Assembly: GCF_012530535.1 (NCBI RefSeq)
Contig: NZ_CP051299.1
Span: 2,356,001-2,420,000, forward strand
Direction of reading: 5' to 3'
DNA length: 64,000 bases
Origin: Microcella flavibacter
GTDB lineage: Bacteria; Actinomycetota; Actinomycetes; Actinomycetales; Microbacteriaceae
In this document: positions 18,733 through 63,788 of the stretch, in pieces
How positions within the stretch are numbered: position 1 is the stretch's first letter
Layout of the letters: every line of letters starts with the position of its first letter
Translations under genes and position numbers: made by a program
The notes under the pieces: model-generated
Told to the model about the DNA's origin: nothing
What the model saw: the letters and a program-made list of their open reading frames with translations, nothing else
Database searches by the model: none

Positions 18733-19740
18733 GTGGCATCCCTCCCCGTCATCGACCTCTCCCTGCTCGACGGCTCCCCCGACGACCAGCGGCGCTTCCG
18801 CGACGAGCTGCGCGCCGCGACGCACGACGTCGGCTTCTTCTACCTCGTCGGGCACGGCGTGCCGGACGACCTCTGGGCGCGCATGTTCGACACCGCGCGC
18901 GACTTCTTCGCCCTGCCGGAGGAGCAGAAGCTCGCGATCGAGAACGTCAACAGCCCGCACTTCCGCGGCTACACGCGCACCGGCGGCGAGCGCACGCTCG
19001 GCAAGGTCGACTGGCGCGAGCAGATCGACATCGGCGCCGAGCGCCCGGCCGTGCCCGCCGGTGAGGGCGTGGAGGACTTCTGGATCCTCGACGGCCCGAA
19101 CCTCTGGCCCGAGCAGCTGCCGCAGCTGCGCGTCGACGCGGAGGAGTGGATGGCGCTGCTCACCGACGTGAGCACCCGCCTGCTGCGCGCCTGGGCCGAG
19201 TCGCTGGGAGCATCCCCCGACGTCTTCGACGAGGCCTTCGCCGCGAACCCCTCGCCCAACATGAAGATCGTGCGGTACCCGGGGATCAACGCCGAGGAGC
19301 CCGCCCAGGGCGTCGGCGCGCACAAGGACCTCGGCGTGCTGACCCTGCTCGCCGTCGAGCAGGGCAAGGCCGGCCTGCAGGTGGAGAAGGACGGCGACTG
19401 GATCGACGCACCGCCCATCGACAAGGCCTTCGTCGTCAACATCGGCGAGCTGCTCGAGATCGCCACCGACGGCTACCTCAAGGCGACCAACCACCGGGTC
19501 ATCTCGCCGAAGGCGGGCACCGAGCGCATCTCCATCCCGTACTTCCACGGGCCCGCGCTCGACGCCGTCATCCCGACCATCGAGCTGCCCGCCGAGCTCG
19601 CCGCCGAGGCGCCGGGCGTCGAGCGCGACCCGAACAACCCGCTGCACCCGGTGTTCGGCCGCAACTGGCTGAAGAGCCGGCTGCGCGCCCACCCGAACGT
19701 GGTGGAGGCGCAGCACCCGCACCTGCTGGTGAAGAACTAG
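18733..19740 (+). CDS. isopenicillin-N-synthase-like 2-oxoglutarate/Fe(II) oxygenase
   Basis: This 335-residue enzyme belongs to the DIOX_N plus 2OG-FeII_Oxy family. The N-terminal domain has HDVGFFYLVGHGVPDDLW. The double-stranded beta-helix core has the metal ligands in GVGAHKDLGVLTLL (HxD) and the distal histidine in LKATNHRVIS, with an arginine in ERISIPYF binding 2-oxoglutarate. The substrate is unknown. The GTG at 18733 is preceded by AAAGGAAC. The upstream Cys-rich leader suggests control by cysteine supply. A truncated, diverged copy of its last 57 codons lies at 21165-21337. Confidence 0.88.
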   Translation: MASLPVIDLSLLDGSPDDQRRFRDELRAATHDVGFFYLVGHGVPDDLWARMFDTARDFFALPEEQKLAIENVNSPHFRGYTRTGGERTLGKVDWREQIDIGAERPAVPAGEGVEDFWILDGPNLWPEQLPQLRVDAEEWMALLTDVSTRLLRAWAESLGASPDVFDEAFAANPSPNMKIVRYPGINAEEPAQGVGAHKDLGVLTLLAVEQGKAGLQVEKDGDWIDAPPIDKAFVVNIGELLEIATDGYLKATNHRVISPKAGTERISIPYFHGPALDAVIPTIELPAELAAEAPGVERDPNNPLHPVFGRNWLKSRLRAHPNVVEAQHPHLLVKN

Positions 19741-20030: not shown

Positions 20031-21001
20031 GCTCGCGGAGGATTGCAGTAGGGGCTCTCGTCTCCGTAGATCACCGGGAACGGCGGGGTCAAGTTGGGGG
20101 CCACGCGATTGATCCGCATCGCCACGCAGTCGTACTGGTTCTTCGCCTGGACTGCCGTCACCCAGAACGCAACAGCGTAGGCGGAACAAGCGAATACGAC
20201 ACCAGGAATTGGAGCCAGGAGAGTTGCGCCACCGCACAGAACCGTCCCGGCCGCCAGCGCGGTCTCAGAGGCTGTGAAAGTCTCCGCCCACGTGAACTCC
20301 AGTGTGCAAAAAATCGCATCGCAGGCCACACGAGGGTCTGCGACAACCGGGTACTCGAATCCGACGTGGTCGACTACTTGAATAATCGAGCTACCCACAA
20401 CCTCGTAGCGCGTAGGGACCGGCTCACCATTCGCGTCCACCGCCCAAGGGGGCGCGATCGCGTTGAGAACGTTGCCGCTCGGGTCCAGAATCTGGATTGC
20501 GTCTCCAACAGCCTGGAGCGCCGCCGGCTGTCCGTCGACTGCAACATCGAAAGCAAAGCGGGATGGCGCTGTGTTGTCGTGCATGACTGCATACGCTGCG
20601 GGCCTCCCGTCAATCGCTGCAGTAACCAGGTCATAGCCGGCTTCCGCGCTGAACACGGCAAGGTCACCTGCGCGGTTGAGGGTTCCTTCTGGCGCTGAGG
20701 GAGTGATGCTGACCGTCCCTGTCCCGCTGTCAACGCGCAGTGCGCCGTCGGATTCCGCTATCTGAGCGCTCGAAGCAACGACCTCCGGGACATCACCTTG
20801 TGTCCCTGCACGAGAGGCTGTCGACTGATCGGTGATGCCGAGACTGCTGAGGGCCGAGAGCGTCGCCTCGTATTCAAGCGCCGCAGCCGTGTCAGACGCG
20901 GGCGCAGCAAGTGCTGCCGTCGGGACGGTAGACCAGGCCCCGAGCATGAGACTGAGCGCTGCCACCGCCCCTACACCCCTCGTGAGTTGCCGATTTCGCA
21001 T
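20027..21001 (-). CDS. secreted protein of unknown function
   Basis: This 324-residue protein has a typical signal peptide (RNRQLTRGVGAVAALSLMLG, cleavage near ALAAPA) and a mature region with no recognised domain. The middle is beta-rich (TVSITPSAPEG, SRFAFDVAVDGQPAAL, PTRYEVVGSSIIQVVDHVGF), and a hydrophobic stretch near the C-terminus (LLAPIPGVVFACSAYAVAFW) is followed by AKNQYDCVAMRINRVAPN. The style resembles large actinobacterial exported proteins seen near toxin-immunity cassettes, but no such function is shown. GGAGG precedes the ATG at 21001. Codon use is less GC-rich than the neighbours, consistent with acquisition. Confidence 0.7.
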   Translation of the reverse strand: MRNRQLTRGVGAVAALSLMLGAWSTVPTAALAAPASDTAAALEYEATLSALSSLGITDQSTASRAGTQGDVPEVVASSAQIAESDGALRVDSGTGTVSITPSAPEGTLNRAGDLAVFSAEAGYDLVTAAIDGRPAAYAVMHDNTAPSRFAFDVAVDGQPAALQAVGDAIQILDPSGNVLNAIAPPWAVDANGEPVPTRYEVVGSSIIQVVDHVGFEYPVVADPRVACDAIFCTLEFTWAETFTASETALAAGTVLCGGATLLAPIPGVVFACSAYAVAFWVTAVQAKNQYDCVAMRINRVAPNLTPPFPVIYGDESPYCNPPRA

Positions 21002-21032
21002 GAGACCTCCAGACCAGTAGAGCGATCGTTCC

Positions 21033-21048
21033 ACCCCCGTATGGGGGT
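21033..21048 (-). promoter_or_regulatory. inverted repeat upstream of the secreted-protein gene
   Basis: ACCCCC and GGGGGT form a 6-bp stem with a GTAT loop, 32 bp upstream of the start. It resembles the metal-operator style of the copA-type promoter at 23970, but may be only a 5'UTR hairpin. Confidence 0.3.
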
Positions 21049-21164
21049 CTTCACGATAACCCGAAGTCGACAGGGCCTCAACCCCAAGGACGAGGCTCCG
21101 AGTGAAGTCCCCCAGCGCCTAAAAGCCACGTGGCGGGACGTAGGCCCGCGAAGCGCGAGGCCGG

Positions 21165-21337
21165 CCCTCGACGCCGTCATCCCCACCATCGAGCTCCCCG
21201 CCGAGGCGCCGGGCGTCGAGCTCGACCCGAACAACCCGCTGCACCCGGTGTTCGGCCGCAACTGGCTGAAGAGCCGGTTGCGCGCGCACCCCAACGTGGT
21301 CGAGGCGCAGCACCCGCGCCTGCTGGTGAAGAACTAG
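21165..21337 (+). pseudogene. truncated second copy of the oxygenase 3' end
   Basis: These 173 bp encode the last 57 or so residues of the oxygenase at 18733-19740, in the same orientation (LDAVIPTIELPAEAPG through NPLHPVFGRNW to LLVKN). A 9-bp deletion removes one of two copies of an Ala-rich triplet, and about a dozen single-base changes separate the copies. Upstream of 21165 the sequence is unrelated, so the copy has no start or active site. The intact gene and this fragment bracket a 1.4-kb cassette. Confidence 0.85.
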
Positions 21338-23986: not shown

Positions 23987-24044
23987 TCCGCAAGAGCGGT
24001 CGGCTAACCGCGGGCCTAGGGTGAGCGCGACCGAGGAGTGGCGA

Positions 24045-24892
24045 ATGACGAAGAAGCAGAGCATGCACGGATCCGTGAAGCGGGTGCCGAAGAAGCTGTA
24101 CGAGGCAGAGCTGCAGCGCCTGCAGATCGAGCTCGTCGAGATGCAGCAGTGGGTCATCGCGACCGGGGCCCGGGTGCTGGTGATCTTCGAGGGGCGCGAC
24201 GCCGCCGGCAAGGGCGGCGCCATCAAGCGCGTCATGCAGTACCTCAACCCGCGGCACGCCCGCGTCGTGGCGCTGCCGCAGCCCACCGAGCGCGAGAAGG
24301 GCCAGTGGTACTTCCAGCGCTACATCGAGCGCCTGCCGACGGCGGGCGAGATCGTGCTCATGGACCGCTCCTGGTACAACCGCGCCGGCGTCGAGCGCGT
24401 CATGGGTACTCGACGGACGAGGAGTACCGCCGCTTCCTGCACCAGGTTCCCGTCGTCGAGCGGATGCTCGTCGAGGACGGCATCACCGTCATCAAGTACT
24501 GGTACTCGGTCTCGGACGACGTGCAGCAGGCCCGCTTCGCCTCGCGCCTGGAGGACCCGATGCGGCGCTGGAAGCTGTCCTCCACCGACCTCGAGTCGAT
24601 CCTGCGCTGGGAGGACTACTCGCGCGCGAAGGACGCCATGTTCGAGGCCACCGACATCCCCGAGGCGCCGTGGTGGACCATCGAGAGCGACGACAAGCGG
24701 GCATCCCGTCTCAACACCATCAGCCACCTGCTGAGCCAGCTCGACTACCACCGCACCGAGCTCGACGAGGTGGTCATCCCCGACCGCCCCGAGGCGACCG
24801 ACTACGAGCGGCCGCCGCGCGAGCAGCACCAGTACGTGCCCGACGTCGCGCGCGAGCTGCGGAAGAGCGCGAAGAAGAGCAAGAAAAAGTAG
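24045..24892 (+). pseudogene. ppk2: polyphosphate kinase 2, frameshifted
   Basis: PPK2 transfers phosphate from polyphosphate to nucleotides. The reading frame from the ATG at 24045 (GAGGAG site) carries Walker A ([15 protein letters not shown]), then [17 protein letters not shown], and loses the frame at about 24406. The rest continues one frame over from [19 protein letters not shown] to the C-terminus (SKKK, 24892). A single C seems to be missing between 24406 and 24407, where family members read GYST or similar. Either the gene is broken or this is a sequencing error; the rest is well preserved. Confidence 0.85.
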
Positions 24893-24910: not shown

Positions 24911-26317
24911 CTAGCTGTCGATTAGTTCCTTCGATGCCTTTTTAAGGATGGCGAGCACCCGCTCCAGGACATCGTCAGAGTCCTTGACATCGTCAAAACC
25001 AACCTGCCGTGCCGAAAAAGCCAGCACAACTGCCCAATATTCTCGAGTTGACGTCTTGCGGCTCTCCGCCCATCGTTGAACTGCTGCAAACCATTCCGGA
25101 CAGTCGGAACTTGACCCGAACGACAGTTCGCCGAAGTCCGTCTCAATGGATGAAACCGAGGGCCATCCAGCGCCCCTCAAGCGCGAATCTGGATGCACGA
25201 GAGTCGAAAGAAGCAGGGCGATTGGGTCGACGAGCCCCGAAGCGAACTCATTGCCATCCGAGTCGATCAGCACCGGCTGGCCGTCACAGATCAGAATGTT
25301 TGCGGGGTGGAGGTCTCCGTGACTCAAGACCATAGAGACCCCGACCCACATCTCGGGCGAAGGAACCGGCACCCCGAGACCACGAAGTCTCGCGTCTAGT
25401 TGCTCCCACGGGATGAAGGGAGCCACAACACTACTGAGAGTCCGACTCAACGGTGACGACCTCTGCAATCCGTCCAGTGCGCTTGCAACCGTTGCAACGT
25501 GCCCCGCTGAAGCTGAATCCTGAGCAGGTATCATGCTCAGGAGCGGTATTGGGGCATCCCCCGCAAGCTGGAGCACTCCAACCAGGTAGCCGCCCATCAG
25601 ACCTGCCACCGTCTCCACCCGCCGGGCTATGTGCTCGCGTCGCAAAAGATCTTGCAGTCCACCTGGCGGAGAAACTTTCCGACTTTGCTTCACAACCACG
25701 CGAGCAACAGTCCCATCGGGAGCGGAGATGTCGCATTGCCACACCTTGGCGTCGGTTAGTCCCCCCGCGAGAAGCCTCGCGGAGACACCAGCCGCCGAAT
25801 AGTGAGCACCGACCCTGCGCAATACGCGTTTGTCAATGTCCGGGCAAGTCACACCCCCAAGTTCCAAGTCGATGTCGTCCAGCGCGCGGATTGCGTCTCT
25901 AAGTACTTTGAGGTGACGCTCAAACATGTCGAATTGTGTTTTTCGCAACACGGTCACACGGTCAACACGCAGGGCGCCTTGATCAAGTACCAGGCCGGCT
26001 CCGACGACAGCAGCCTGAGCATGAACAAAGTTCGTATATCCGCTGAAAATTACTATTCGGGCATCGGCATAGCGCGTTGCAACAGCGTTGAATAAGGCGT
26101 CGCCGAGCTCATCCGCCTTCGTTTCACCACTTCTCATCGGCAGCTTGCGGTCCAGAACGAATAGATCAATAAACTGTATGGGGCCATCAACAAAGTCAAG
26201 TGCCGATTGAACGTCTACGAATCCGGTCACCACAAAACCGGCTTCACGTAGAGCGGCGCTCGCCTCGAAGAATTGCTGCGGGTCGTCGTCTACCAAAACT
26301 GCGCGCGGTTCAGGCAT
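24911..26317 (-). CDS. receiver domain fused to an aminoglycoside-phosphotransferase-like kinase
   Basis: This 468-residue protein joins two domains. Residues 1-130 are a receiver: acidic pocket in AVLVDDDPQ, phospho-acceptor aspartate in IDLFVLDRKLPM, and SGYT. Residues about 170-430 look like an APH/choline-kinase fold: N-lobe lysine segment VARVVVKQS, catalytic loop LSHGDLHPANIL (HxDxxxxN) and metal aspartate in VLIDSDG. The kinase substrate is unknown. It is the last gene of a low-GC operon with a histidine-kinase-like gene (8-bp overlap) and an SMC-like ATPase. The ATG at 26317 was chosen because it overlaps that gene; an upstream start would lengthen the N-terminus. I know of no standard name for this fusion. 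Confidence 0.75.
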   Translation of the reverse strand: MPEPRAVLVDDDPQQFFEASAALREAGFVVTGFVDVQSALDFVDGPIQFIDLFVLDRKLPMRSGETKADELGDALFNAVATRYADARIVIFSGYTNFVHAQAAVVGAGLVLDQGALRVDRVTVLRKTQFDMFERHLKVLRDAIRALDDIDLELGGVTCPDIDKRVLRRVGAHYSAAGVSARLLAGGLTDAKVWQCDISAPDGTVARVVVKQSRKVSPPGGLQDLLRREHIARRVETVAGLMGGYLVGVLQLAGDAPIPLLSMIPAQDSASAGHVATVASALDGLQRSSPLSRTLSSVVAPFIPWEQLDARLRGLGVPVPSPEMWVGVSMVLSHGDLHPANILICDGQPVLIDSDGNEFASGLVDPIALLLSTLVHPDSRLRGAGWPSVSSIETDFGELSFGSSSDCPEWFAAVQRWAESRKTSTREYWAVVLAFSARQVGFDDVKDSDDVLERVLAILKKASKELIDS

Positions 26318-27179
26318 TGACCGCCACCTCTCCCGTAAGCGTGAACGTGGCAACCCCACTTTGCCCCGTTACCCTGAACCCATAAGCCAGCCTCGCAGAA
26401 GCGGATTGGACTAGAGAAATTCCTATTCCTTGATGGCCAGCCTTAGTCGAAATTCCGGCCGCCTCCACGTCTTGAACGTCGAATTGACTACCCCGGAACG
26501 CGTTACTCACCCGGACCCAAAATCTGCCATCTACCTCACTCCACGCGACCGAGACAGGAGGTGGATCCTCAAGCTCGTTGGATGCGTCCACCGCATTTTG
26601 ATATACGTTAGACAAGATCAGCTCGAACAGTCCCAGATCCGTTTGGATATTCGGCCGCCGACCAATCAGCTCTTGGGCAGGTGAGAATGAGGGAGTCGTC
26701 GCGAAGTCAGGCCAGGTCCCCCGGAGGACATCTTCCAAATCTACCGACACCAGTTCAAGTGGCGAGTCAGCCTTGATTAGAGCAACGATCGCGTCGACTC
26801 TCCTTTCGAGTCTGTTGACGGCGTCATTCGTCCCGCTTTTCGGAAATTCTTCAATTTCCTTGTTGCCGGCGCGACGGATCCAACCAATGGGCGGGGAAAG
26901 TTCATGGCGTATAAGGCGAGCAAGTTCAGGTGCGTCCACATGCGGCGTACCCATGACCGAAGGCGCTTTCGTCTCCGTCTCAGGAGGGGATGCTTGACGC
27001 GCGGCAAGCACGTCGTTGAAGATCTGCCTAATTTGGTTGACTGGCTCGTTCTGTAACGAACGCATGAGCATGGTCACACTCAGCACGTTTGGGTTCGCTT
27101 TAGCCCACAGTGCGGCCTTGAGCCGCAAGCTCGGAGACTCCGAGTTGAGCGCGGACAAGATCCAGTCGGGTATCTCCAC
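26310..27179 (-). CDS. histidine-kinase-like protein without sensor domain
   Basis: This 289-residue protein starts with a GTG and an N-terminal helical segment (residues 1-75). A dimerisation/phosphoacceptor helix pair follows with an H-box-like IRHELSPPIGWIR, then a GHKL ATPase domain with N-box ELILSNVYQNAVDAS, and G-box AGISTKAGHQGIGISLVQ. No membrane helix or PAS domain is present, so it is cytosolic and probably receives its signal from a partner protein. It sits directly between the SMC-like ATPase and the receiver-kinase fusion, so it probably phosphorylates the latter's receiver aspartate. This chain is inferred from gene order. Confidence 0.75.
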   Translation of the reverse strand: MEIPDWILSALNSESPSLRLKAALWAKANPNVLSVTMLMRSLQNEPVNQIRQIFNDVLAARQASPPETETKAPSVMGTPHVDAPELARLIRHELSPPIGWIRRAGNKEIEEFPKSGTNDAVNRLERRVDAIVALIKADSPLELVSVDLEDVLRGTWPDFATTPSFSPAQELIGRRPNIQTDLGLFELILSNVYQNAVDASNELEDPPPVSVAWSEVDGRFWVRVSNAFRGSQFDVQDVEAAGISTKAGHQGIGISLVQSASARLAYGFRVTGQSGVATFTLTGEVAVNA

Positions 27180-29008
27180 TAGAGAAGACTGCCGTGCTCT
27201 TCGTAAAACGCGGATCTGCGCGCGAAAGCGTCCCGTCCACCTTCCATTAGGCTTGTGATCGCATCAACGATGGGTTGCTCATCGAATTTCCCATCTGCCC
27301 GCACGTGGCCATGTTGACCATCACTAGCCATCACGAAAACGCGTCCGGCAGAGCCCAATACCGGGATGTTGGCATTGTGCGTAGCAACGATGGTCTGAAC
27401 GGCACTTGCCGATCGTCTCACCATCCCGGTAACGACATGATCCACAAGGTATGCATTATCAAGATGGTCTTCTGGTTGGTCCAAGATCAGCGTGCGGTCA
27501 CGCTCAGACAGGACGATCGGCAGGGTAACGGCACATTTTTGTCCGGTCGATAGGGTTTCCACGCTCTTGTCGACCGCACCATCTCGTAGCAAGAAGTCAA
27601 CGCTGTCCAAAAGTGCGACTTGCGACAAACTAGCCAGGGCATCGGGCGAATCGAGGGCGCCGATGACCCGAGCTGCTTGATCGTGCGTCAGATCGCCTGC
27701 CGAAGCTAAAGCGAGCACGTCCTGTGCCTCCACAATCTCCAACAGGAAGCGCGGCAGAACTCGTGCAGCCAGCGAGTCAATCAATGACGACCTGGTGTGC
27801 GTGCCCTTCAACCGTTCGAGCAACAACGTTCGCAGTTCCCGGGTGTCGGACAGGTGCTGAACCGATACAACGATGTGATTATCGATCTCCTGCGATGTGA
27901 CTTTCGCTACAGCCAGTCGAGCGCGAAAAAGTCTTTCTTCCGCGGCCTCAACAGTCGCGTACTCAAAATCCCTCTCAGCACGCATTGTCTGCAATTCCTG
28001 CTCGAGGACGGATATTTGCGCGTCCACGGCATCAAGCTCGAGCAACTGTGCATTCACATTTCTGATCTGCGCAGTCAATTGCCCCAGACCGGCCTCGGTT
28101 TCTTCCAGAGTTGCCCTTAGGGGCGCGGCAGTTTCCTTCAAACCGCTCTCGGCAGCGACGGAAGTATCTGTTTGTATTCTTATTTCGCGGTCAATGCGAC
28201 CAGACTCGCCAGTAGCCATGCTCAGGAGCTCTTCAACGCGAGCAATGTGCGATGACAGGTCGCCCGCGGCCCCGATCGAATCGCGCGCCAGCATAGCAAG
28301 GCGCGTAGCGATTTCTGACGCAAGCGCTACAGTCTCGTGAAGTTTCGCGTTAGCTTCCCTGGCCCTCGTGAGTCCATCAAGCTTTCTAGCGAGTGCACTC
28401 GATTTCTCTTCCACTGCGTTGAGTTGGTCGCGCTGGGATGCAAGGGGGCTACCGGACTCTCCAACAATCGCTGCCTCCTGCGACTTGAAAATTTCACGGT
28501 CGGCTTCGAGCCCAGGGCGCTTGAGCGACTCCTCGCGGAGGTCTTCAAGAACTCTCCTTGACTCGAACAGTCGCCGAGTTAGGTTGGCGATCCTTGATCG
28601 ATCGGGCACAGATTGGGCATCGCCCGCCCGAAGGTCGAGCAGGCGAAGTCTGCTAGCCGGATCGGAAGCGATGTCCTCGAGCTCGCTTTGGCCGAGTACC
28701 AAGACAGAATGCGACAGCTCCGGTCTGCGCCCGCGCCCCTTCGCGTCGACGATGATCTGGGAACCACCGTTAGCGTCTTCGAGGTCCACTATGGCCTCCC
28801 CAGAGCCAAGGACGGCCGCAAGTAGAGCTTGACGAGCGGTCTCGCGTTGCCGGTCGGCATGTTCGGCCCCTATGGCGTGGCGGATCAGCTCCAGCAAAGT
28901 CGTCTTGCCCGCGCCTCGCGGACCGACAACAACGTTCAACCCCTTGATGAAGGAAACGTCTAGTCCGTTCAGGAACCCACCATTGATTCGGAGCCTGGAT
29001 ACCCACAT
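27179..29008 (-). CDS. SMC/Rad50-like ATPase
   Basis: This 609-residue protein has an ABC-type ATPase split by a long coiled coil. Walker A is VGPRGAGKTT (near residue 30), the Q-loop region is VLVLGQSELEDIA, residues about 150-430 are heptad-rich, and the C-terminal half carries the signature LSTGQKCAVTLP, Walker B TLILDQPEDHLDN and the H-loop IVATHNANIPVLG. The pattern resembles ATPases of anti-phage and TrlF-type loci. Its stop overlaps the GTG of the kinase-like gene. It is the first gene of the operon, next to tRNA-Ser, and has lower GC than the neighbouring core genes. Confidence 0.82.
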   Translation of the reverse strand: MWVSRLRINGGFLNGLDVSFIKGLNVVVGPRGAGKTTLLELIRHAIGAEHADRQRETARQALLAAVLGSGEAIVDLEDANGGSQIIVDAKGRGRRPELSHSVLVLGQSELEDIASDPASRLRLLDLRAGDAQSVPDRSRIANLTRRLFESRRVLEDLREESLKRPGLEADREIFKSQEAAIVGESGSPLASQRDQLNAVEEKSSALARKLDGLTRAREANAKLHETVALASEIATRLAMLARDSIGAAGDLSSHIARVEELLSMATGESGRIDREIRIQTDTSVAAESGLKETAAPLRATLEETEAGLGQLTAQIRNVNAQLLELDAVDAQISVLEQELQTMRAERDFEYATVEAAEERLFRARLAVAKVTSQEIDNHIVVSVQHLSDTRELRTLLLERLKGTHTRSSLIDSLAARVLPRFLLEIVEAQDVLALASAGDLTHDQAARVIGALDSPDALASLSQVALLDSVDFLLRDGAVDKSVETLSTGQKCAVTLPIVLSERDRTLILDQPEDHLDNAYLVDHVVTGMVRRSASAVQTIVATHNANIPVLGSAGRVFVMASDGQHGHVRADGKFDEQPIVDAITSLMEGGRDAFARRSAFYEEHGSLL

Positions 29009-29215: not shown

Positions 29216-29306
29216 TGGCGGAACCGGTGGGATTTGAACCCACGGTGGGCTCAACACCCACACAACTTTTCGAGAGTTGCACCTTCGGCCGCTCGGACAC
29301 GGTTCC
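29216..29306 (-). tRNA. tRNA-Ser (CGA)
   Basis: The minus strand folds as a 91-nt tRNA with acceptor GGAACCG/CGGTTCC, a long variable arm, T-arm GGTTCAAATCC, and anticodon loop CTCGAAA (anticodon CGA, reading UCG). The 3' CCA is encoded. The low-GC operon at 24911-29008 lies on its 3' side, a typical insertion spot. Confidence 0.95.
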
Positions 29307-56772: not shown

Positions 56773-57078
56773 ATGCCCGGTCCCTATCCCAGAGAGTTCC
56801 GCGAGGACGTCGTCGCGGTCGCCCGACGTCGCGAGAGCGGTGTCACGCTCAAGCAAGTCGCCACTGACTTCGGTATCAGCGAAGCGACGTTGCAGAACTG
56901 GCTGCGCCAAGCCGATATCGAAGAAGGCGCTCGTCCCGGTCAGACCGCAGACCAAGCGGCCGAGGTGCGCGAGCTGCGTCGCCGGAATCGTCTCCTCGAG
57001 CAGGAGAACGAGGTCCTGCGGAAGGCGGCGGCGTATTTGTCGCAGGCGAATTTGAAACTCGGTGGCTCCCGAAAATGA
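56773..57078 (+). CDS. IS3-family transposase OrfA
   Basis: This 101-residue protein has the helix-turn-helix of IS3 OrfA (GVTLKQVATDFGISEATLQN) and a leucine-rich tail (LRRRNRLLEQENEVLRKAAA) typical of the OrfA coiled coil. It precedes orfB with an ATGA overlap rather than a clear slippery site. Confidence 0.9.
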   Translation: MPGPYPREFREDVVAVARRRESGVTLKQVATDFGISEATLQNWLRQADIEEGARPGQTADQAAEVRELRRRNRLLEQENEVLRKAAAYLSQANLKLGGSRK

Positions 57079-57953
57079 TCTACCCGCTCGTTGCTGAGCT
57101 CGCCGAAGCGGGGATTCCCGTGACGGTGTCGTGCCGGGTCTTGAAGCTCGCCCGCCAGCCGTACTACCGATGGCGGAAGGATCCCGTTCGGGACGCAGAT
57201 GTGGTGCGCGCGTATCGGATCAACGCCCTCCACGATGCCCACGCTGAAGATCCGACGTTCGGCTACCGATATCTCGCCGACGAAGCCCGCAGGGCGGGCT
57301 GGCGGATGAGCCGGCGGACGGCCTGGAAGCTGTGTTCCCAGGCCGGGATCCTCTCTTCGGCGCAGCGACGCAGGCGCGGAAAGGGCAAGAAGGTTGGCCC
57401 GCCGGTGTTCGACGATCACGTGCAGCGCGTATTCCGCGCGGACGCGCCGAACCGCCTATGGCTGACCGACATCACCGAGCACCGCACGGCGACCGAGGGC
57501 AAGCTCCATTGCTGCGCGATCAAGGACGTCTTCTCGAACCGGATCGTCGGCTACTCCATCAGTGAGCGAATGACGGCGAAGCTTGCCGTCGACGCTCTCC
57601 GCAACGCCGTCGCCCGACGTGGGGACGTCGCGGGCTGCATTCTGCATGCCGACAGGGGCAGTCAGTTTCGCAGTCGGGCGATGGCCAGGGAGCTGCGCCG
57701 CCACGACATGGTCGGCTCGATGGGCCGCGTCGGTGCCGCTGGGGACAACGCCGCGATGGAGAGCTTCTGGTCGCTGCTGCAGACCAACGTTCTCAACCAG
57801 CAACGGTGGGCGACGAGGCCAGAGCTGCGCCTCGCGATCGTGGTCTGGATCGAGCGAAAGTATCACCGGCAACGCGCCCAGGACACCCTCGGAGGGTTGA
57901 CCCCGGTCGAGTTCGAAGTGAGGCTATCCGAGTCGCGATCCCTCGCGGCCTAA
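57075..57953 (+). CDS. IS3-family transposase OrfB
   Basis: This 292-residue protein has the rve DDE domain: first aspartate in LWLTDITEHRT, second in ILHADRGSQF, and the glutamate in GDNAAMESFWSLL, followed by the conserved YHRQRAQDTLGGLTPVEFE. An HTH_21 region (TFGYRYLADEARRAGWRMS) precedes it. It is intact, so this copy may still be active. Confidence 0.94.
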   Translation: MIYPLVAELAEAGIPVTVSCRVLKLARQPYYRWRKDPVRDADVVRAYRINALHDAHAEDPTFGYRYLADEARRAGWRMSRRTAWKLCSQAGILSSAQRRRRGKGKKVGPPVFDDHVQRVFRADAPNRLWLTDITEHRTATEGKLHCCAIKDVFSNRIVGYSISERMTAKLAVDALRNAVARRGDVAGCILHADRGSQFRSRAMARELRRHDMVGSMGRVGAAGDNAAMESFWSLLQTNVLNQQRWATRPELRLAIVVWIERKYHRQRAQDTLGGLTPVEFEVRLSESRSLAA

Positions 57954-58081
57954 ACCGAACCTGTCACCAGTTCGTTCCTCACGCCCCTCCTCGTCGCACC
58001 ACGAGCTCCACTCACCGACGAACCGGCGAACTCGCGGACCAACCGCGACGCGATGTCCCTTATCGCCCTTAAGGTTGGGCC

Positions 58082-59014
58082 ATGACGATCGCGCACGACG
58101 GTAGAGCCAAGGTAAGCGGCGCGAGCGGGGTCGTCCGAAACGGCGACGCGTACGATCTGTTCCCCGACATTCCTGCGAATTCGGTGGACCTGATCTTGAC
58201 GTCGCCGCCCTACTGGGGACTGCGCGACTACGGGCTCGACCATGACCACGAGATTCTCAAGCACTGGGTCGCAGCTGGCAACGACTCGGATGACGCGCCG
58301 CCCTACGAGTGGTACCGATCGAATGGCGGAGTCCTCGGCTTGGAACCACGGCCCGAGTGGTTCGTCGCGCACCTGGTAGAGATCTTTCAGCGCGGAGCGC
58401 ACGCGCTCAAGCCCGGTGGCAGTGTGTGGGTAAACATCGGCGATACATATTTCGCGCGATGGGCAAGTATTCGGAACGACGGTCGCCAAGGGCTCGGCAA
58501 TACCGAGCGCGCACGACGGAGAGCACCAGTCGGCGGCTTCCGTCAGGAGAAGCAGTTGCTTTTGATCCCTGCGCGTTTTGCAATAGCGATGCAGGACCGG
58601 CGATGGATCCTGCGGAACGACGTCATCTGGAACAAACCGAATGTGCCACCGCGACCCGAACGCGACCGGTTGCGGCTCTCACACGAGCACTTCTTCCACT
58701 TCGTCAAGCGCCCAACTTCCGGCCGCGCGAGCTATTACTACGACCTCACTGAGGTTGAAGATGGCGCACGCGACGTGGTGACTACAAACGTGCGGGCGGG
58801 GCAGGATGGCCACTCCGCAACTTTCCCGCGCGACCTCATCCGACCTCGAATCCTGAGTTCATGCCCTCCGGGAGGAACGGTGCTCGACCCCTTCTGCGGA
58901 ACGGGGCGTACGTTAAGTGTCTCTGTAGAGAGCGGTCGCAACGCTATTGGGTTCGACTTGAACACAAACTTTGCCGCAGTCGCGGCCTCAAACTCGGGAG
59001 ACGGGCATCGCTAG
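58082..59014 (+). CDS. DNA methyltransferase of a NotI-type restriction-modification system
   Basis: This 310-residue methyltransferase has the catalytic motif DLILTSPPYWGLRDYG near residue 40 and the S-adenosylmethionine motif TVLDPFCGTGRTL near residue 285. Motif order (catalytic first) places it in the beta class; SPPYW is usual for N4-cytosine enzymes, but N6-adenine is not excluded. It overlaps the restriction endonuclease gene, so both are expressed together. Base composition is below the core genes. Confidence 0.88.
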   Translation: MTIAHDGRAKVSGASGVVRNGDAYDLFPDIPANSVDLILTSPPYWGLRDYGLDHDHEILKHWVAAGNDSDDAPPYEWYRSNGGVLGLEPRPEWFVAHLVEIFQRGAHALKPGGSVWVNIGDTYFARWASIRNDGRQGLGNTERARRRAPVGGFRQEKQLLLIPARFAIAMQDRRWILRNDVIWNKPNVPPRPERDRLRLSHEHFFHFVKRPTSGRASYYYDLTEVEDGARDVVTTNVRAGQDGHSATFPRDLIRPRILSSCPPGGTVLDPFCGTGRTLSVSVESGRNAIGFDLNTNFAAVAASNSGDGHR

Positions 59015-60131
59015 GTCGAGCGCCGGCGAAGCTGGAAACATCATCGCCGAGTGGTTCGGGCATCGCGTGTATCCCGTAGCGGCGAATACGTCCGCCGCGA
59101 GAGCCGACCAGCGCAACGAGTGCTGCCCGTTTCTCAGCGATGTCACCGAGACACAGGTGACTTGCGTCAAGAGCGCGAAGTCCAAGGGCGGCTCGTCAAG
59201 CGGGGTGTCCCGTGGGGTATGCACCATCTCGAGCACCAGCAACGGCCTTCGGCAGGACTGGCTTGCGTGCCCGTTCCGAGCGCTAGATGTCGGGATGCTT
59301 GAGGATGCTGCACGACGACTGTTCGAACTCGATAGCGGCCGCCCTGTCCAGCTCATTGCGGCTCCGTCGCTCGCGAATGAAACGAAGCGGGAACTGTTCC
59401 GCCAAGCGCTGCTCGACGGCGAGGCCGGCGTGGCCTACTTCCAGGGCAAGCTCGGCGGGGAGATCAGCGTCCGAGCCACTGAGCGGTCGCCAGAACTTAA
59501 CTTTGACGCGACCATGGTCGAACTCACGATGGTCGACGGCGTCCTCCATGTCGGGCGCTATGCAATCTTCGAGATTCAGACGATGGATTTCCACGGCACC
59601 TACAAGAGAGCCGTCGACAACATCGCCGCGGCGAGCCATCTCCATAAAGACGACTTCGCAGCTGCTGTGGAGGCGCATCCCGACTGGTTGTCGGAAGGCG
59701 TTGAAGGTCCGAACATCTCGAACGCGTTCAAGCGCACGTTTTATCAGATGATGTTCAAGTTCCAGATCGGAGCTCACGGCACTTCAGCCGGCTGTGTCCT
59801 GGCTATCCCGGAGGCAGTCTGGGATAGCTGGCAAAGATTTCTCGGCAAACCCGAGTTGATTGCCGCCGAAGACGGAACTTGGCGCTTACTGGGAACACCA
59901 TCGGACGAGCGCCCGCCAGCCTGGATCTACGTCTTTGATCTCGCAACCCACACTGGCCTGACCCCCAATCCGGTTCAACTCAAGAAAGTGATCGGCACAA
60001 CCGCCGCAGCGCTCTCACATTTCGCACTCGACGTTGCTCCCGAAGCAGCGCTCGAAGCGGGCGGAAGCGTCGACAATCTGCTCGAAACGATCAAGGCGCG
60101 ACTGATGCGATTCGACCCCGATATCGTTTAG
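58971..60131 (+). CDS. NotI-family restriction endonuclease
   Basis: This 386-residue protein closely follows the NotI family from the opening (AGNIIAEWFGHRVYPVAANT) through Cys-containing segments (CCPFLSDV, VTCVKSAKS, SRGVCTISS, LACPFRALD) that match the iron-binding cluster of NotI, the core VAYFQGKLGGEIS and FEIQTMDFHGTYKRAVDN with catalytic acidic residues, and FKRTFYQMMFKFQIG. The start is TTG at 58971, inside the methyltransferase gene; no ATG or GTG lies near. The recognition site is unknown. Confidence 0.85.
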   Translation: MPQSRPQTRETGIARSSAGEAGNIIAEWFGHRVYPVAANTSAARADQRNECCPFLSDVTETQVTCVKSAKSKGGSSSGVSRGVCTISSTSNGLRQDWLACPFRALDVGMLEDAARRLFELDSGRPVQLIAAPSLANETKRELFRQALLDGEAGVAYFQGKLGGEISVRATERSPELNFDATMVELTMVDGVLHVGRYAIFEIQTMDFHGTYKRAVDNIAAASHLHKDDFAAAVEAHPDWLSEGVEGPNISNAFKRTFYQMMFKFQIGAHGTSAGCVLAIPEAVWDSWQRFLGKPELIAAEDGTWRLLGTPSDERPPAWIYVFDLATHTGLTPNPVQLKKVIGTTAAALSHFALDVAPEAALEAGGSVDNLLETIKARLMRFDPDIV

Positions 60132-61024
60132 CTCGGCGAGTTCAAGTTCGAATCGACCCACGCAAGCGCGGCGGTCGCATCGAAATCGCCATCGCGAAGC
60201 CCAATTCCGGCATCTGTCAGGAGCGTCGCGATGTGACCGGTATCGAGCCCGACGACTCCGCTTGCTGCGAGCAGTCGCAATCCGTCAGCACTGATCGATC
60301 CGGTCGTAAGGAAGAGATAGAAGACGGGATCGCACACTCTCGGCTCGAATCCCTGGAGTGCGCGTCCGTCGTCAGCGACAGCGCCAGTGCGTGCCAGTTC
60401 GACGGATCCGACGAGTTCGCGGAGGTCAGGCGTCGACACTCGAGTTTTCGAGTAGTGCTTCGCCTGGCCAACCATCCAGACTTCTAGGCGCCTATCTGGA
60501 GACGGTAGATGAGACGAGATGTCCAGGCGTCCCTCGAGGCTCAAGCGACCAAAGAAGTCGATGCCCTGATCATTGGCCGACGCCGTCAGGCGGGGATCCT
60601 TGCAACCGAGGAGGGCAAGAATGCCGCGGCAGCAAGCCTCGAACTGCCGCCAATTCAGCCCCCTAAGGAAAGCGCCGTACTCATCGAAGTCCAGCCGACG
60701 GCGCTTCGCATCCGCGATCGGAGTTCCCTCTTCTTCCGGAGGTACAAAGCAACTGCCCTGCAGGTGTTCATCGGAAGAGCTGTTGAAAGCGAAGCGTGCG
60801 AAGGTCCCCGAGGGTGTGGCGACGTCCAGAATGGACTCCAGCCCGCGTTTCACCCCGTCCAGCCGCTGCTCTGCAAATTCCGCAGCCTCGTCGGGCGTGA
60901 AAGAATGCTCAATAATCATGACGCCCGCGATGAGATCGACGACGCGCGTCGGGGGCTCAGCTAACGAGATCGTCGCCGCGATGTGTTCTGCGACCGCAAG
61001 CGATCTAACTCGATTGCTTCTCAC
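60128..61024 (-). CDS. Mrr-like restriction endonuclease domain protein
   Basis: This 298-residue protein has an N-terminal helical domain (SLAEPPTRVVDLIAGVMIIE) and a C-terminal PD-(D/E)xK-like nuclease core: WRQFEACCRGILALLGCKD, ASANDQGIDFFG and WMVGQAKHYSKT, with the last three residues in the usual place. It resembles Mrr/type IV nucleases. GTG start. It overlaps the ParB-like gene by 20 bp and meets the NotI-type gene end to end (overlapping stops). Confidence 0.8.
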   Translation of the reverse strand: MRSNRVRSLAVAEHIAATISLAEPPTRVVDLIAGVMIIEHSFTPDEAAEFAEQRLDGVKRGLESILDVATPSGTFARFAFNSSSDEHLQGSCFVPPEEEGTPIADAKRRRLDFDEYGAFLRGLNWRQFEACCRGILALLGCKDPRLTASANDQGIDFFGRLSLEGRLDISSHLPSPDRRLEVWMVGQAKHYSKTRVSTPDLRELVGSVELARTGAVADDGRALQGFEPRVCDPVFYLFLTTGSISADGLRLLAASGVVGLDTGHIATLLTDAGIGLRDGDFDATAALAWVDSNLNSPS

Positions 61025-62138
61025 GCGACTCCACGATCTCGGCGATCAGATCACGCAGCTCCGCCAACTTTTTGACCTGACCGTCCTCAAGCTGACGAAT
61101 CTCTCGGATTCCAAGGTGGTCGAGAGCCGCCAGAGCGGCGTTGATCTTGGACAGCCAGTTGCGTCCGGCATCCGCCGATTTCACGAGCGCAGAGGCATCG
61201 CTGAAGGGTTTCTCGAGGTCGAGCAGCGATTGCACCGCGTCCTCGTTGTCCAGAATCGTCTTGAGTTCTCGGATCTCTGAGTAAGACGTGATCTTCGGCG
61301 GACGCTTGACTCCGGCAGTGTCTGTGTATGGCGACAGCAACGAGTAAAAACTCTCCCGCTCGTCCTCATTCTCAAAGGTCATGCTGCCGTCGTCCCACGA
61401 AAGCCAGGTACGGACCTTGGGGCTGACGAGCGCCTCGTGGAAGAGCGGGTACAGCTCGCTGGTGACGTAGTCGGAATACTCCTCACTCGCTCGCATCTGG
61501 TCCATGGCTTCGAACGCGCGGTATCGCCGATTAATCTCCACGGCCGAGAGTCCGAGGCGCGAGCCGACATCCTGCGCGGAGAGAGAGTGCTCTTTGCGCA
61601 GCTCATGCACAAGCTGCGCACTCTGGTACCCGCCCCACTCCTTGACGCCACCGACGTGTCGAATGCCCATAATGGCGAGATACGCGCTCTCGTCGTCAGA
61701 CTCCAGAACCACGACCGGCACGGCATCGAAAATCTCGAGTACTTGCTCGGGAAGATCGATCCCTGCCTCGTGGTCGGATTTCAGCCATCTGAGAGACGCT
61801 AAGCGGCGATTACCTTCCAGGACGACGAAGAGGTCCGGGACGGCGACGGGTTCGACAGTGTCGCCCTCCGTCTGAGCTGCGTCGACGCCGCCTGCTTGCA
61901 CGCTCAGCTTGCGAACAACGATGCGCTCGACAGGCACGAACCCGTTTGACATGATCGACTGCTTCAGCTCGGTGAGCCCATCAGCTTTCAATCGCGCAAA
62001 CGCCGCGTTCTGAACTCCGTCTTCCGAGAACCGCGTTTCGGCAACTCTACGGACGGCAGCGTCACCCTGAAAGCGAAAGTTGTTCGGATCCAGGAGAATT
62101 TGAGAGAGCGGTAGCGTTTTCGGTTCGTAGGTAGTCAT
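61005..62138 (-). CDS. ParB-like protein paired with the Mrr-like nuclease
   Basis: This 377-residue protein starts with a ParB/Srx-type domain: LPLSQILLDPNNFRF, then FVVLEGNRRLASLRWLK (GNRR motif). A helix-turn-helix follows (SLSAQDVGSRLGLSAVEINR), and a C-terminal helical part. In chromosomal ParB this fold binds and hydrolyses CTP; some phage and defence proteins use it as a nuclease. It is the upstream gene of the pair. The ATG at 62138 has a GAGGACC site. It has no partition partner (ParA) here. Confidence 0.8.
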   Translation of the reverse strand: MTTYEPKTLPLSQILLDPNNFRFQGDAAVRRVAETRFSEDGVQNAAFARLKADGLTELKQSIMSNGFVPVERIVVRKLSVQAGGVDAAQTEGDTVEPVAVPDLFVVLEGNRRLASLRWLKSDHEAGIDLPEQVLEIFDAVPVVVLESDDESAYLAIMGIRHVGGVKEWGGYQSAQLVHELRKEHSLSAQDVGSRLGLSAVEINRRYRAFEAMDQMRASEEYSDYVTSELYPLFHEALVSPKVRTWLSWDDGSMTFENEDERESFYSLLSPYTDTAGVKRPPKITSYSEIRELKTILDNEDAVQSLLDLEKPFSDASALVKSADAGRNWLSKINAALAALDHLGIREIRQLEDGQVKKLAELRDLIAEIVESREKQSS

Positions 62139-62334
62139 TCGGTCCTCGGCTCAGTCGGCCGTATAAGTGTGTCAGGAACGGCGGGCGCACCGTGTCAACG
62201 AAATGCTCCGGGCCGGTCCCGGGCCGGGAACTCGGTTGAAACCATCTACAATCAGCCGCCTCCAACTAGCACGACTTCCGCTGAACCACGCGACGAACGA
62301 GCACTCGTGGGCACCCGTAAACCCGCCGCGTACA

Positions 62335-62378
62335 ACTGAAAATCGTGAGGTCACGGGATCGACGCCCGTCGGAGCCAC
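62335..62378 (+). repeat. right attachment site: exact copy of the tRNA-Phe 3' half
   Basis: 44 bp are identical to 55724-55767. It lies just beyond the ParB-like gene promoter and directly before the IS256-family element. Confidence 0.9.
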
Positions 62379-62383
62379 GAGTA

Positions 62384-63788
62384 GTGCCCCATAAGGTGGT
62401 GTAGCCCGGTGGCTGGCTCGTCGTCTTGGACGTGGGCGCGGTCACCGTGGTGTTCCTTCGAGGAAATTCTCACATCCCACTCGAAAGGCATCACACACGA
62501 TGACCGCTCCACATATTGTCGACCCTGCTGGCGTTCTTGGCGAGGCTCTCGCCGAGGCGTCCCCGGATTCGATGCGCAGCCTGCTGCAGACCATGATCAA
62601 CGCACTGCTGTCCGCGGACGCGGACGCCGTCGTCGGCGCCGAATGGGGCAAACCCAGCCCCGATCGGCTCACGCAGCGCAACGGCTATCGGCGCCGCGAG
62701 CTGGACACTCGCGTCGGGACGGTCGACGTCGCGATCCCGAAGTTGAGGTCAGGAACCTACTTCCCCGAGTGGCTCATGGAGCGCCGCAAGCGCGCTGAGA
62801 CTGCGCTGATCACCGTCGTCGCGGACTGCTACCTCGCCGGGGTCTCCACCCGGCGGATGGACAAGCTGGTGAAGACCCTCGGCATCCACTCGCTGTCCAA
62901 GTCGCAGGTCTCGCGCATGGCCGCCGATCTCGACGAGCACGTCGAGCAGTTCCGCCACCGCCCTCTTGGTGATGCCGGACCGTTCACCTTCGTTGCCGCT
63001 GACGCGCTGACCATGAAAGTGCGTGAAGGCGGCAGGGTGATCAACGCCGTGGTGCTGATCGCGACCGGCGTCAACGCCGACGGACGCCGCGAAGTCCTCG
63101 GCCTGCGGGTCGCCACCTCCGAAACAGGGGCGGCCTGGAACTCGTTCTTCGCCGATCTCGTCGCACGCGGCCTGGGCGGGGTTCGTCTGGTCACCTCCGA
63201 CGCCCACCAAGGCCTCGTGGAGGCGATCGCCGCGAACCTGCCCGGCGCGAGCTGGCAACGATGCAGGACGCACTACGCCGCGAACCTGATGTCCGTGTGC
63301 CCGAAGAGCATGTGGCCGGCGGTGAAGGCGATGCTGCACTCCGTCTACGACCAGCCCGACGCAGCCTCCGTCCACGCCCAGTTCGACCGACTCCTGGACT
63401 ACGTCGACGGCAAGCTGCCCGACGCGCACGAGCACCTCGACGCCGCGAGAGCGGACATCCTCGCGTTCACGCAGTTCCCCGAGGGGCTCTGGCAGCAGAT
63501 CTGGTCCAACAACCCCAACGAGCGCCTGAACCGAGAGATCCGCCGCCGCACCGACAGTGTCGGCATCTTCCCCAATCGCGACGCGATCGTCCGCCTCGTC
63601 GGCGCGGTCCTGGCCGAGCAGACCGACGAATGGGCCGAAGGACGCCGCTACCTCGGCCTCGACATCCTCGCCAAGTCCCGTCTGAGCCTCGTGCCCGACA
63701 CCGGAAACGAGGTGAATACCGACACCGTCCTCGAACTCAGCGCTTAACCCATCACTTCGAAGGACCGCGCTACACCACTACCTGGGAC
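62384..63788 (+). mobile_element. IS256-family insertion sequence
   Basis: Inverted ends share GTGGTGTAGCNCGGT (left 62396-62410, right 63764-63778 in reverse). It starts about 6 bp outside the right attachment site. A single long transposase gene lies between them. Confidence 0.8.
62500..63747 (+). CDS. IS256-family transposase
   Basis: This 415-residue transposase has the mutator-type N-terminal part (LTQRNGYRRRELDTRVGTVD), the central FVAADALTMKVREGGRV, RLVTSDAHQGLVEAIAANLP and the later QRCRTHYAANLMS, and IWSNNPNERLNREIRRR near the C-terminus. These carry the DDE residues of the family. It is intact. Confidence 0.93.
   Translation: MTAPHIVDPAGVLGEALAEASPDSMRSLLQTMINALLSADADAVVGAEWGKPSPDRLTQRNGYRRRELDTRVGTVDVAIPKLRSGTYFPEWLMERRKRAETALITVVADCYLAGVSTRRMDKLVKTLGIHSLSKSQVSRMAADLDEHVEQFRHRPLGDAGPFTFVAADALTMKVREGGRVINAVVLIATGVNADGRREVLGLRVATSETGAAWNSFFADLVARGLGGVRLVTSDAHQGLVEAIAANLPGASWQRCRTHYAANLMSVCPKSMWPAVKAMLHSVYDQPDAASVHAQFDRLLDYVDGKLPDAHEHLDAARADILAFTQFPEGLWQQIWSNNPNERLNREIRRRTDSVGIFPNRDAIVRLVGAVLAEQTDEWAEGRRYLGLDILAKSRLSLVPDTGNEVNTDTVLELSA

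Follow-up and report, generated by a model that had tools for sequence, protein, structure and literature searches.

What is known of two-component signalling mostly concerns sensing at the membrane and transcription. The subject of this analysis is a trio of genes at positions 24911-29008 of a 64,000-nucleotide stretch of the Microcella flavibacter genome (referred to as the window), in which a cytoplasmic SMC-like ATPase seems to stand in the place of the sensor and a small-molecule-type kinase in that of the output. The two are joined by a soluble histidine kinase (HK), and the output kinase, of the APH superfamily, is fused to a receiver domain (receiver-APH). The trio was found as a unit across four phyla. 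If the function proposed below is true, it would be an example of genome-guarding ATPases feeding a phosphorelay, and the residues conserved in each part make every step directly testable.

The ATPase core is common to the trio ATPase and the families TrlF (NF045780) and Ppl (NF042955), of which Ppl is labelled an anti-phage protein by NCBIfam. Both families differ from the trio in having an N-terminal extension of ~300 amino acids, which we take to be a PHP domain and which is absent from the trio ATPase, while the latter is partnered with an HK and a receiver-APH protein. TrlF was the nearest NCBIfam family of the window ATPase (E = 8e-56), with a match spanning profile positions 292-943 only. 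Assignment of the window ATPase to either family as defined was rejected because both scores fell under the curated cut-offs (190.3 bits against 350 for TrlF; 80.5 bits against 1000 for Ppl). Across the trio, 22/22 ATPases matched TrlF_fam_ATP at E <= 1e-20 and 18 matched Ppl. Judged by these profile matches, the trio ATPase is a stand-alone relative of the TrlF/Ppl ATPases.

A likeness for the other two proteins is seen in Detocs, a two-component defense system in which an HK and a receiver reportedly drive an effector domain fused to the receiver, with a separate receiver-only gene and a receiver-PNP effector. The trio resembles Detocs in having an HK and a receiver that would drive a receiver-fused effector, but it differs in its separate ATPase as the likely sensor, in the absence of a free receiver gene, and in carrying an APH kinase in place of PNP. 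Membership under this definition was rejected, as the space from ppk2 to tRNA-Ser(CGA) is filled by the trio with no room for a fourth gene, and no PNP match was found in the three proteins. Lamassu, Menshen, and MADS likewise place an SMC/ABC-like ATPase beside other genes, and the window ATPase gave PADLOC matches to LmuB (2e-9), NsnB (1e-4), and mad3 (5e-16). In contrast to these systems, the HK and receiver-APH proteins of the trio matched none of the partner models (the HK gave no PADLOC match at all and receiver-APH just a 10-bit match to MkoA), and the relay of the trio looks like a phosphotransfer pair. Lamassu membership was rejected since the weak LmuB match stood by itself, with no LmuA or LmuC match for either partner.

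The probable TCAD9/APH kinase domain of the trio has its like in the vWA-MoxR-VMAP ternary conflict systems, to which TCAD9 is tied in a figure legend (PMC10910872). The effector descriptions for vWA ternary conflict systems include a few active APH kinases and state that histidine kinase domains were not found in the vWA-associated effectors (PMC7159879). No vWA, MoxR, or VMAP domain was detected in the three proteins at E <= 1, and the trio was accordingly not assigned to these systems. HATPase and REC are named among the domains of predicted systems in a further figure legend (PMC13092281), and an overlap with the trio is possible. No description or name for the trio was found in the literature searched, the coverage of which is incomplete, so that a prior mention is possible. 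An earlier note made from the sequence of the window (the original prediction) had proposed a single three-part module belonging to no named system. Both points held, the first through conserved gene order and signalling residues and the second within this literature. The note was thereby partly supported, since its reading of the ATPase as a sensor of DNA, of the relay and the kinase as working parts, and of the role as defense stays a proposal; the kinship of the ATPase to TrlF/Ppl and the sister class with another output (below) were additions to it.

Layout and conservation of the trio

The three open reading frames (ORFs) lie on the minus strand in the order ATPase, HK, receiver-APH, with overlapping ends (Table 1). 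The GTG start of the HK gene and the stop of the ATPase gene have one base in common, and the receiver-APH gene overlaps the HK gene by 8 nucleotides when read from its ATG. An alternative GTG start at 26359, given in the mechanical ORF list, was judged less likely; this GTG-start version (P0003) was used in the Pfam, PADLOC, and first single-sequence searches with the window protein. The GC content of the trio is 0.571, versus 0.705 in the remaining window. The overlaps at both junctions, the lowered GC content, and the location between ppk2 and tRNA-Ser had all been described in the original prediction and were confirmed. The search for a promoter of the operon's own was negative, with a single sigma-70-like match inside the operon versus a mean of 1.4 in shuffles.

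Table 1. Positions in the window of the trio genes, their key residues, and the flanking tRNA gene
Feature	Position	Strand	Evidence or conservation
SMC/ABC-like ATPase, 609 aa	27179..29008	-	ORF, Pfam/NCBIfam matches, family alignment
Walker A GPRGAGKT (aa 29-36)	28901..28924	-	Gly29, Arg31, Gly32, Gly34, Lys35 invariant, 22/22
Soluble HK, 289 aa	26310..27179	-	ORF, Pfam, family alignment, AlphaFold2/Foldseek
Predicted phospho-accepting His92 of HK	26904..26906	-	22/22 members
Receiver-APH fusion, 468 aa from ATG	24911..26317	-	ORF, family profiles, AlphaFold2/Foldseek
Predicted phospho-accepting Asp56 of receiver	26150..26152	-	23/23 members
Kinase catalytic loop HGDLHPAN (aa 333-340)	25298..25321	-	H333, D335, H337, N340 invariant, 23/23
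tRNA-Ser(CGA), 207 bp upstream of ATPase start	29216..29306	-	Flank of variable-content site in genus

Homologous loci were collected by tblastn against plasmids, by profile scans of genome contigs and viral contigs, after which ORFs were called in six frames and matched to the three profiles. The profile scan of genome contigs gave at least 592 stretches, and its counts are lower bounds. It yielded at least 29 loci, 17 of which matched part of the kinase region alone and 12 of which were nearly full length. Among the matches listed, 11 of these 12 carried all three genes, from ATPase through HK to receiver-APH, with order and strand preserved, and were from Sphingopyxis, Campylobacteraceae, Aurantiacibacter, Agrobacterium, Acidimicrobiia, Dehalococcoidia, Erwinia, Arthrobacter, Propioniciclava, Photobacterium, and Rathayibacter. 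One complete locus, L034, has an ORF from which the first part of the receiver is missing. The twelfth full-length locus, L029, is a 3.4-kb contig that retains no more of the HK than its second half; since it is 99.8% identical to a Shinella plasmid copy (L015) from mid-HK on, with the first 744 bases different, it was deduced to be either a broken trio or a chimeric contig. The viral-contig collection, whose contigs are putative phage genomes, gave nine loci, and the two that were full length both held the trio and are near-copies of each other.

On plasmids, 45 records matched receiver-APH and 633 matched the ATPase. Eleven loci were read (1 of 36 from Piscirickettsia and 1 of 3 from Klebsiella), and the trio was intact in eight: Phaeobacter, Shinella, Klebsiella, Vibrio, Caballeronia, Leclercia, Rhizobium, and Pantoea. 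The others were a C-terminal piece by itself in Rhodococcus (L020), a long TrlF-type protein in the place of the trio in Providencia, and a Piscirickettsia locus (L018, 4000-9067) in which the trio order is kept while the genes are split into several ORFs, from which it is probably decayed. The loci are distributed over Pseudomonadota, Campylobacterota, Actinomycetota, and Chloroflexota. The original prediction had called for homologues of the fusion to be collected by profile search, and in these diverse genomes, viral contigs, and plasmids the HK and ATPase genes were indeed found beside it. The contrary outcomes named there, a fusion widespread by itself or genes scattered in the genome, were not seen in the material searched, the exceptions being L018, L020, L029, and a distant fusion described below (L039).

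In total, at least 21 complete loci besides the window were obtained with order and strand unchanged. With start codons chosen by script, the ATPase and HK genes overlapped in 17/21 and were <=3 nucleotides apart in the other 4, while the HK and receiver-APH genes overlapped in 16/21, were <=2 nucleotides apart in 4, and were separated by 134 nucleotides in L034. The pairwise distances of the three proteins were strongly correlated (21 loci including the window, with L029 and L034 omitted), with coefficients of 0.90 for ATPase-HK, 0.90 for ATPase-receiver-APH, and 0.87 for HK-receiver-APH. None of 2000 permutations gave values as high, it being noted that the permutations keep common descent and that near-copies (L016/L032 and L054/L055) are among the 21; thinning to 18 loci gave 0.86, 0.85, and 0.82, respectively. 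Judged by gene order and by these distances, the trio is a conserved unit whose three proteins diverge in step.

The trio is sparsely distributed. The nearest relative of the window copy among the matches listed was that of Rathayibacter (L036), with identities of 41% for receiver-APH, 42% for HK, and 49% for the ATPase, and the first scan of genome contigs with the window protein alone gave no match. A single-sequence search of 299 genomes of the window's family matched five, namely, the window's own and four with receiver-only matches. Receiver-APH was found in 3 of 396 Actinomycetota genomes, the window's own included. ATPase matches were found in 15 of these 396; the three above 600 bits were in the same genomes as receiver-APH and adjacent to it with the HK between, and the other 12 were <=283 bits and mostly in frames of ~900 amino acids. 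One of the three genomes (G475) is not independent because its ATPase is identical to that of L030. For 398 genomes centered on G704, receiver-APH was found in the center genome alone, which also held the sole ATPase above 600 bits, and some ATPase match was present in 34.

Conserved residues, sister class, and trio-free fusion

The Walker A, Walker B, and signature motifs claimed for the first protein in the original prediction were all located; the signature is LSTGQ and the Walker B motif LILDQPED. The Walker A Lys, the signature Ser-x-Gly-Gln, and the Walker B Asp are kept in 22/22 family ATPases. Most ABC proteins have a Glu in the Walker B motif where the window ATPase has a Gln, and this Gln follows the Walker B Asp in 22/22 trio ATPases. 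An ATPase tree was built from 74 sequences covering at least 480 profile positions, by a quick method without bootstrap. The Walker B motif starts DQPE in 72/74 of these rows, which comprise trio, sister, long TrlF-type, and unassigned ATPases. The trio ATPases formed a group of 25 rows (Shimodaira-Hasegawa-like approximate likelihood ratio test [SH-aLRT] support, 99), made up of 22 labelled APH, two loci cut short (L066 and L067), and L085, which ends at a contig end. The RRwHTH label of L066 and L067 in the tree arises only from the cut loci, and L063 and L064 place both in the APH class.

The HK consists of an N-terminal four-helix region, a DHp domain with His92, and an HATPase domain; the HEAT-like nature of the N-terminal helices was noted by eye only. 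HATPase_c_5 of Pfam was over its cut-off (24.2 versus 22), and the AlphaFold2 model (mean predicted local distance difference test score [pLDDT], 80.7; low-confidence stretches at residues 65-79 and 234-250) matched a histidine-kinase core when compared with the PDB by Foldseek. The H-box (IRHELSP) and N-box (NVYQNA) agreed with the original prediction, and His92, Glu93, Asn191, and Asn195 are kept in 22/22 members. The G box noted there calls for a correction, since the G1 box, DxGxG in 20/22 members, reads SNAFRG in the window.

The third protein has a receiver at about residues 1-125 and an APH-superfamily kinase at about residues 150-468. The Pfam matches of the window copy were under the cut-offs (Response_reg, 22.7 versus 30.2; APH, 16.6 versus 23.2; TCAD9 [PF19974], 23.8 versus 40). 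Across the family at E <= 0.01, TCAD9 and APH matched 23/23 members and Response_reg 22/23, and the best TCAD9 match among the receiver-APH relatives reached E = 6.9e-21. The AlphaFold2 model (mean pLDDT, 79.7; low-confidence stretches at residues 97-116, 217-221, and 224-243) was found by Foldseek to combine a receiver and an APH/choline-kinase-type kinase in one protein; the kinase matches (APH, choline, and malto-kinases) had E values from 1.6e-6 and modest TM-scores of ~0.3-0.5. The receiver and the HGDLHPANIL loop of the original prediction were thus recovered. The receiver Asp56 and Lys126, the kinase HxDxHxxN motif, and the metal-binding Asp352 are present in 23/23 members, and the beta-strand Lys214 of the kinase in 21/23, the remaining two, near-copies of each other, having Arg.

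In a sister class, a TrlF/Ppl-like ATPase is coupled to an HK and to a receiver whose C-terminal part is of another kind. Its ATPases formed the second group of the tree (32 rows; SH-aLRT, 99), comprising four incompletely assigned loci and 28 viral-contig loci; the latter have the gene order of the trio, with an HK followed by a receiver that gave no APH-kinase match in its C-terminal part. Of ten sister receivers scanned, all matched Response_reg; one had an HTH match over cut-off, one a Trans_reg_C match just under it, and the rest were weak or unassigned in this part. Sister ATPases were found at 416-437 bits in 10 of the 398 G704-centered genomes, and the order ATPase-HK-receiver was seen in 8/8 regions fetched from seven genomes, one region being partial. 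Within the L199-L201 set, G717 has three ATPase copies, with two fetched regions 93% alike over 3.7 kb, and a sigma-54-activator-like gene was noted by eye further downstream. In G729, again by eye, the sister system is divergent from HsdM-like and WYL-type-regulator-like genes.

A receiver fused to an APH kinase (84 bits), distant from the trio type, was also found in L039 (4763-12024), a locus from a metagenome-assembled genome of Anaerolineales (Chloroflexota). A long HK protein there, with GAF-like repeats by eye and the HK domain at its C terminus, is followed by several receiver proteins, including the fusion. Receiver-gated APH kinases would therefore not be confined to the trio, since the L039 locus gave no ATPase match, and the fusion lends support to the notion that APH kinases can be switched by a receiver.

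Proposed mechanism and alternative explanations

The position of the window copy and the neighbors of the other copies bear on function. Among 21 genomes of the genus, the tRNA-Ser flank was found partly or wholly in all 21, whereas ppk2 was found at length in 7, among them the window's own genome. Ten stretches at this tRNA-Ser from other species were compared: both flanks were present in five, 1.3 to 7.1 kb apart and with differing content, the other five gave no ppk2 close to the tRNA, and the trio was present in none of the ten. Two of eight cargo proteins from these stretches were transposases or integrase-core proteins by Pfam.

Around the 21 loci, 145 neighboring ORFs were analyzed (rough gene caller; 14 small ORFs of 159 dropped). 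They included matches to phage integrase (7), resolvase (3), and IS110 transposase (3), and 52 PADLOC families were matched at E <= 1e-15, often several models on one protein. In the control set, 124 ORFs around 16 kinase-region-only loci, 13 families were matched, including mad, IetA, and PDC models, the best at 1.4e-41. The clear named defense genes were HmaC next to L031 (1144 bits), HamB with HamC next to L019, and AbiEii next to L017, the remaining neighbors of the ten scanned singly giving generic or no matches. From its variable tRNA-Ser site, the integrases, and the Hma, Hachiman, and AbiE genes beside 3/21 copies, the trio may have a role in defense.

On balance, the trio is proposed to be a mobile three-part signalling module, probably defensive, in which a phosphorelay-gated kinase would stop growth or phage replication. 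The ATPase, the proposed and probable sensor, would bind an invader- or damage-related cue and close around ATP. The natural Gln of its Walker B motif suggests that ATP is hydrolyzed slowly and that the ATP-closed state persists, suiting a switch over a motor. The closed ATPase would contact the soluble HK, perhaps via the N-terminal helices, and release autophosphorylation on His92. The phosphate would pass from His92 to Asp56 of the receiver, both of which are conserved, and the phosphorylated receiver would switch on the fused kinase, whose active site is conserved likewise. Phosphorylation of a small molecule or cell component would then halt growth or phage replication. Besides the conservation and the neighboring genes, the anti-phage label of the related Ppl, the carriage on plasmids and viral contigs, and the active APH kinase reported from vWA conflict-system effectors (PMC7159879) speak for this reading.

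Several observations weigh against this proposal. The signal from neighboring genes is modest, as a clearly named defense gene was within ~6.5 kb at just 3/21 loci, and the control set too gave PADLOC matches, though fewer and mostly weaker. An att repeat at tRNA-Ser was sought in the window and none was found. The Rhizobium receiver-APH had no tblastn match in the phage record collection, and the Klebsiella and Leclercia trios had no near match in Escherichia coli genomes. The L039 fusion lies beside another HK with no ATPase match at the locus, and the distance test has the limits given above. The G1-box Asp is replaced by Asn226 and the first Gly by Phe228 only in the window and in Rathayibacter L036. 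Lastly, the sister class, in which a few receivers seem to have DNA-binding-type outputs, would fit general stress signalling equally.

It is accordingly conceivable, though rather unlikely, that the trio is a stress or DNA-damage module and not an anti-phage one, in which the ATPase would respond to a metabolite or to DNA damage while the kinase would adjust a metabolite pool. The HTH-type output of the sister class (2/10 scanned, with one match over cut-off and one narrowly below) is like that of ordinary regulators, SOS-type families are present among the 145 neighbors (impB/mucB, SRAP, and S24 peptidase, 2 each), and the closest folds of the kinase are small-molecule kinases. Against this, the trio is rare and patchy (3/396 and 1/398 genomes, counting the sample-center genome in each), is carried by plasmids as well as viral contigs, and occupies a site of variable content in the window. 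A role in plasmid or element maintenance, in which the ATPase would watch over the DNA of its own element or of a competitor, with the kinase poisoning cells that lose the former or acquire the latter, is improbable; eight intact plasmid copies were read, some near rep, ParA, or VapBC genes, but the trio has no antitoxin-like gene, the window copy is part of a single 2.6-Mb contig, and further copies lie on genome contigs that are not known plasmids. That the window copy is a decaying remnant with a nonworking HK is suggested by its G1 box without Asp and first Gly, by the lack of another full-length match in the 299 family genomes (single-sequence search), and by the broken copies L018 and L029, but it has little likelihood given that the three ORFs and the other catalytic residues are intact and that the G1-box change looks like a kept variant because L036, at 41-49% identity, has the same Asn226 and Phe228.

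The favored proposal of a mobile, phosphorelay-gated kinase module can be narrowed further, at the cost of greater doubt. We tentatively hypothesize, with the chances slightly against it, that the trio represents a novel class of mobile immunity: the SMC-like ATPase would recognize invading DNA or its processing and start a His-Asp phosphorelay, the receiver-activated kinase would phosphorylate an essential small molecule or macromolecule and so stop the infected cell, and the sister class of viral contigs and genomes would be the same front end with a different output.

Other features of the site and the window

Near the same tRNA-Ser in the congener G702 (L154, 3310-8811), an 1833-residue protein was observed with a DUF4011 helicase and a restriction-endonuclease domain. 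It matched the PADLOC candidate PDC-S37 at E = 0, from which it was deduced that the site can hold candidate defense genes. By eye, ppk2 of the window (24021-24892) lies in two frames, with the start in the frame of the ORF at 24021-24734 and the remainder in the frame of 24038-24892. The G701 copy (L149, 491-1363) is in one frame, and the split in the window is either a sequencing error or a frameshift. A 2-oxoglutarate-oxygenase-like gene (18733-19740) has its end repeated ~1.6 kb downstream (20798-21337), and relatives of this gene were seen by eye near tRNA-Ser in the congener stretches L151, L152, and L155.

A second stretch of low GC content lies at 57075-63747 of the window, near a tRNA-Glu-Asp-Phe cluster. 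IS3- and IS256-type transposases were recognized by eye around four genes, for a DNA methylase (58082-59014), a NotI-like restriction enzyme (58971-60131), and Mrr-like and ParB-like proteins (60128-61024 and 61005-62138, respectively), and the stretch may be a restriction-modification island.

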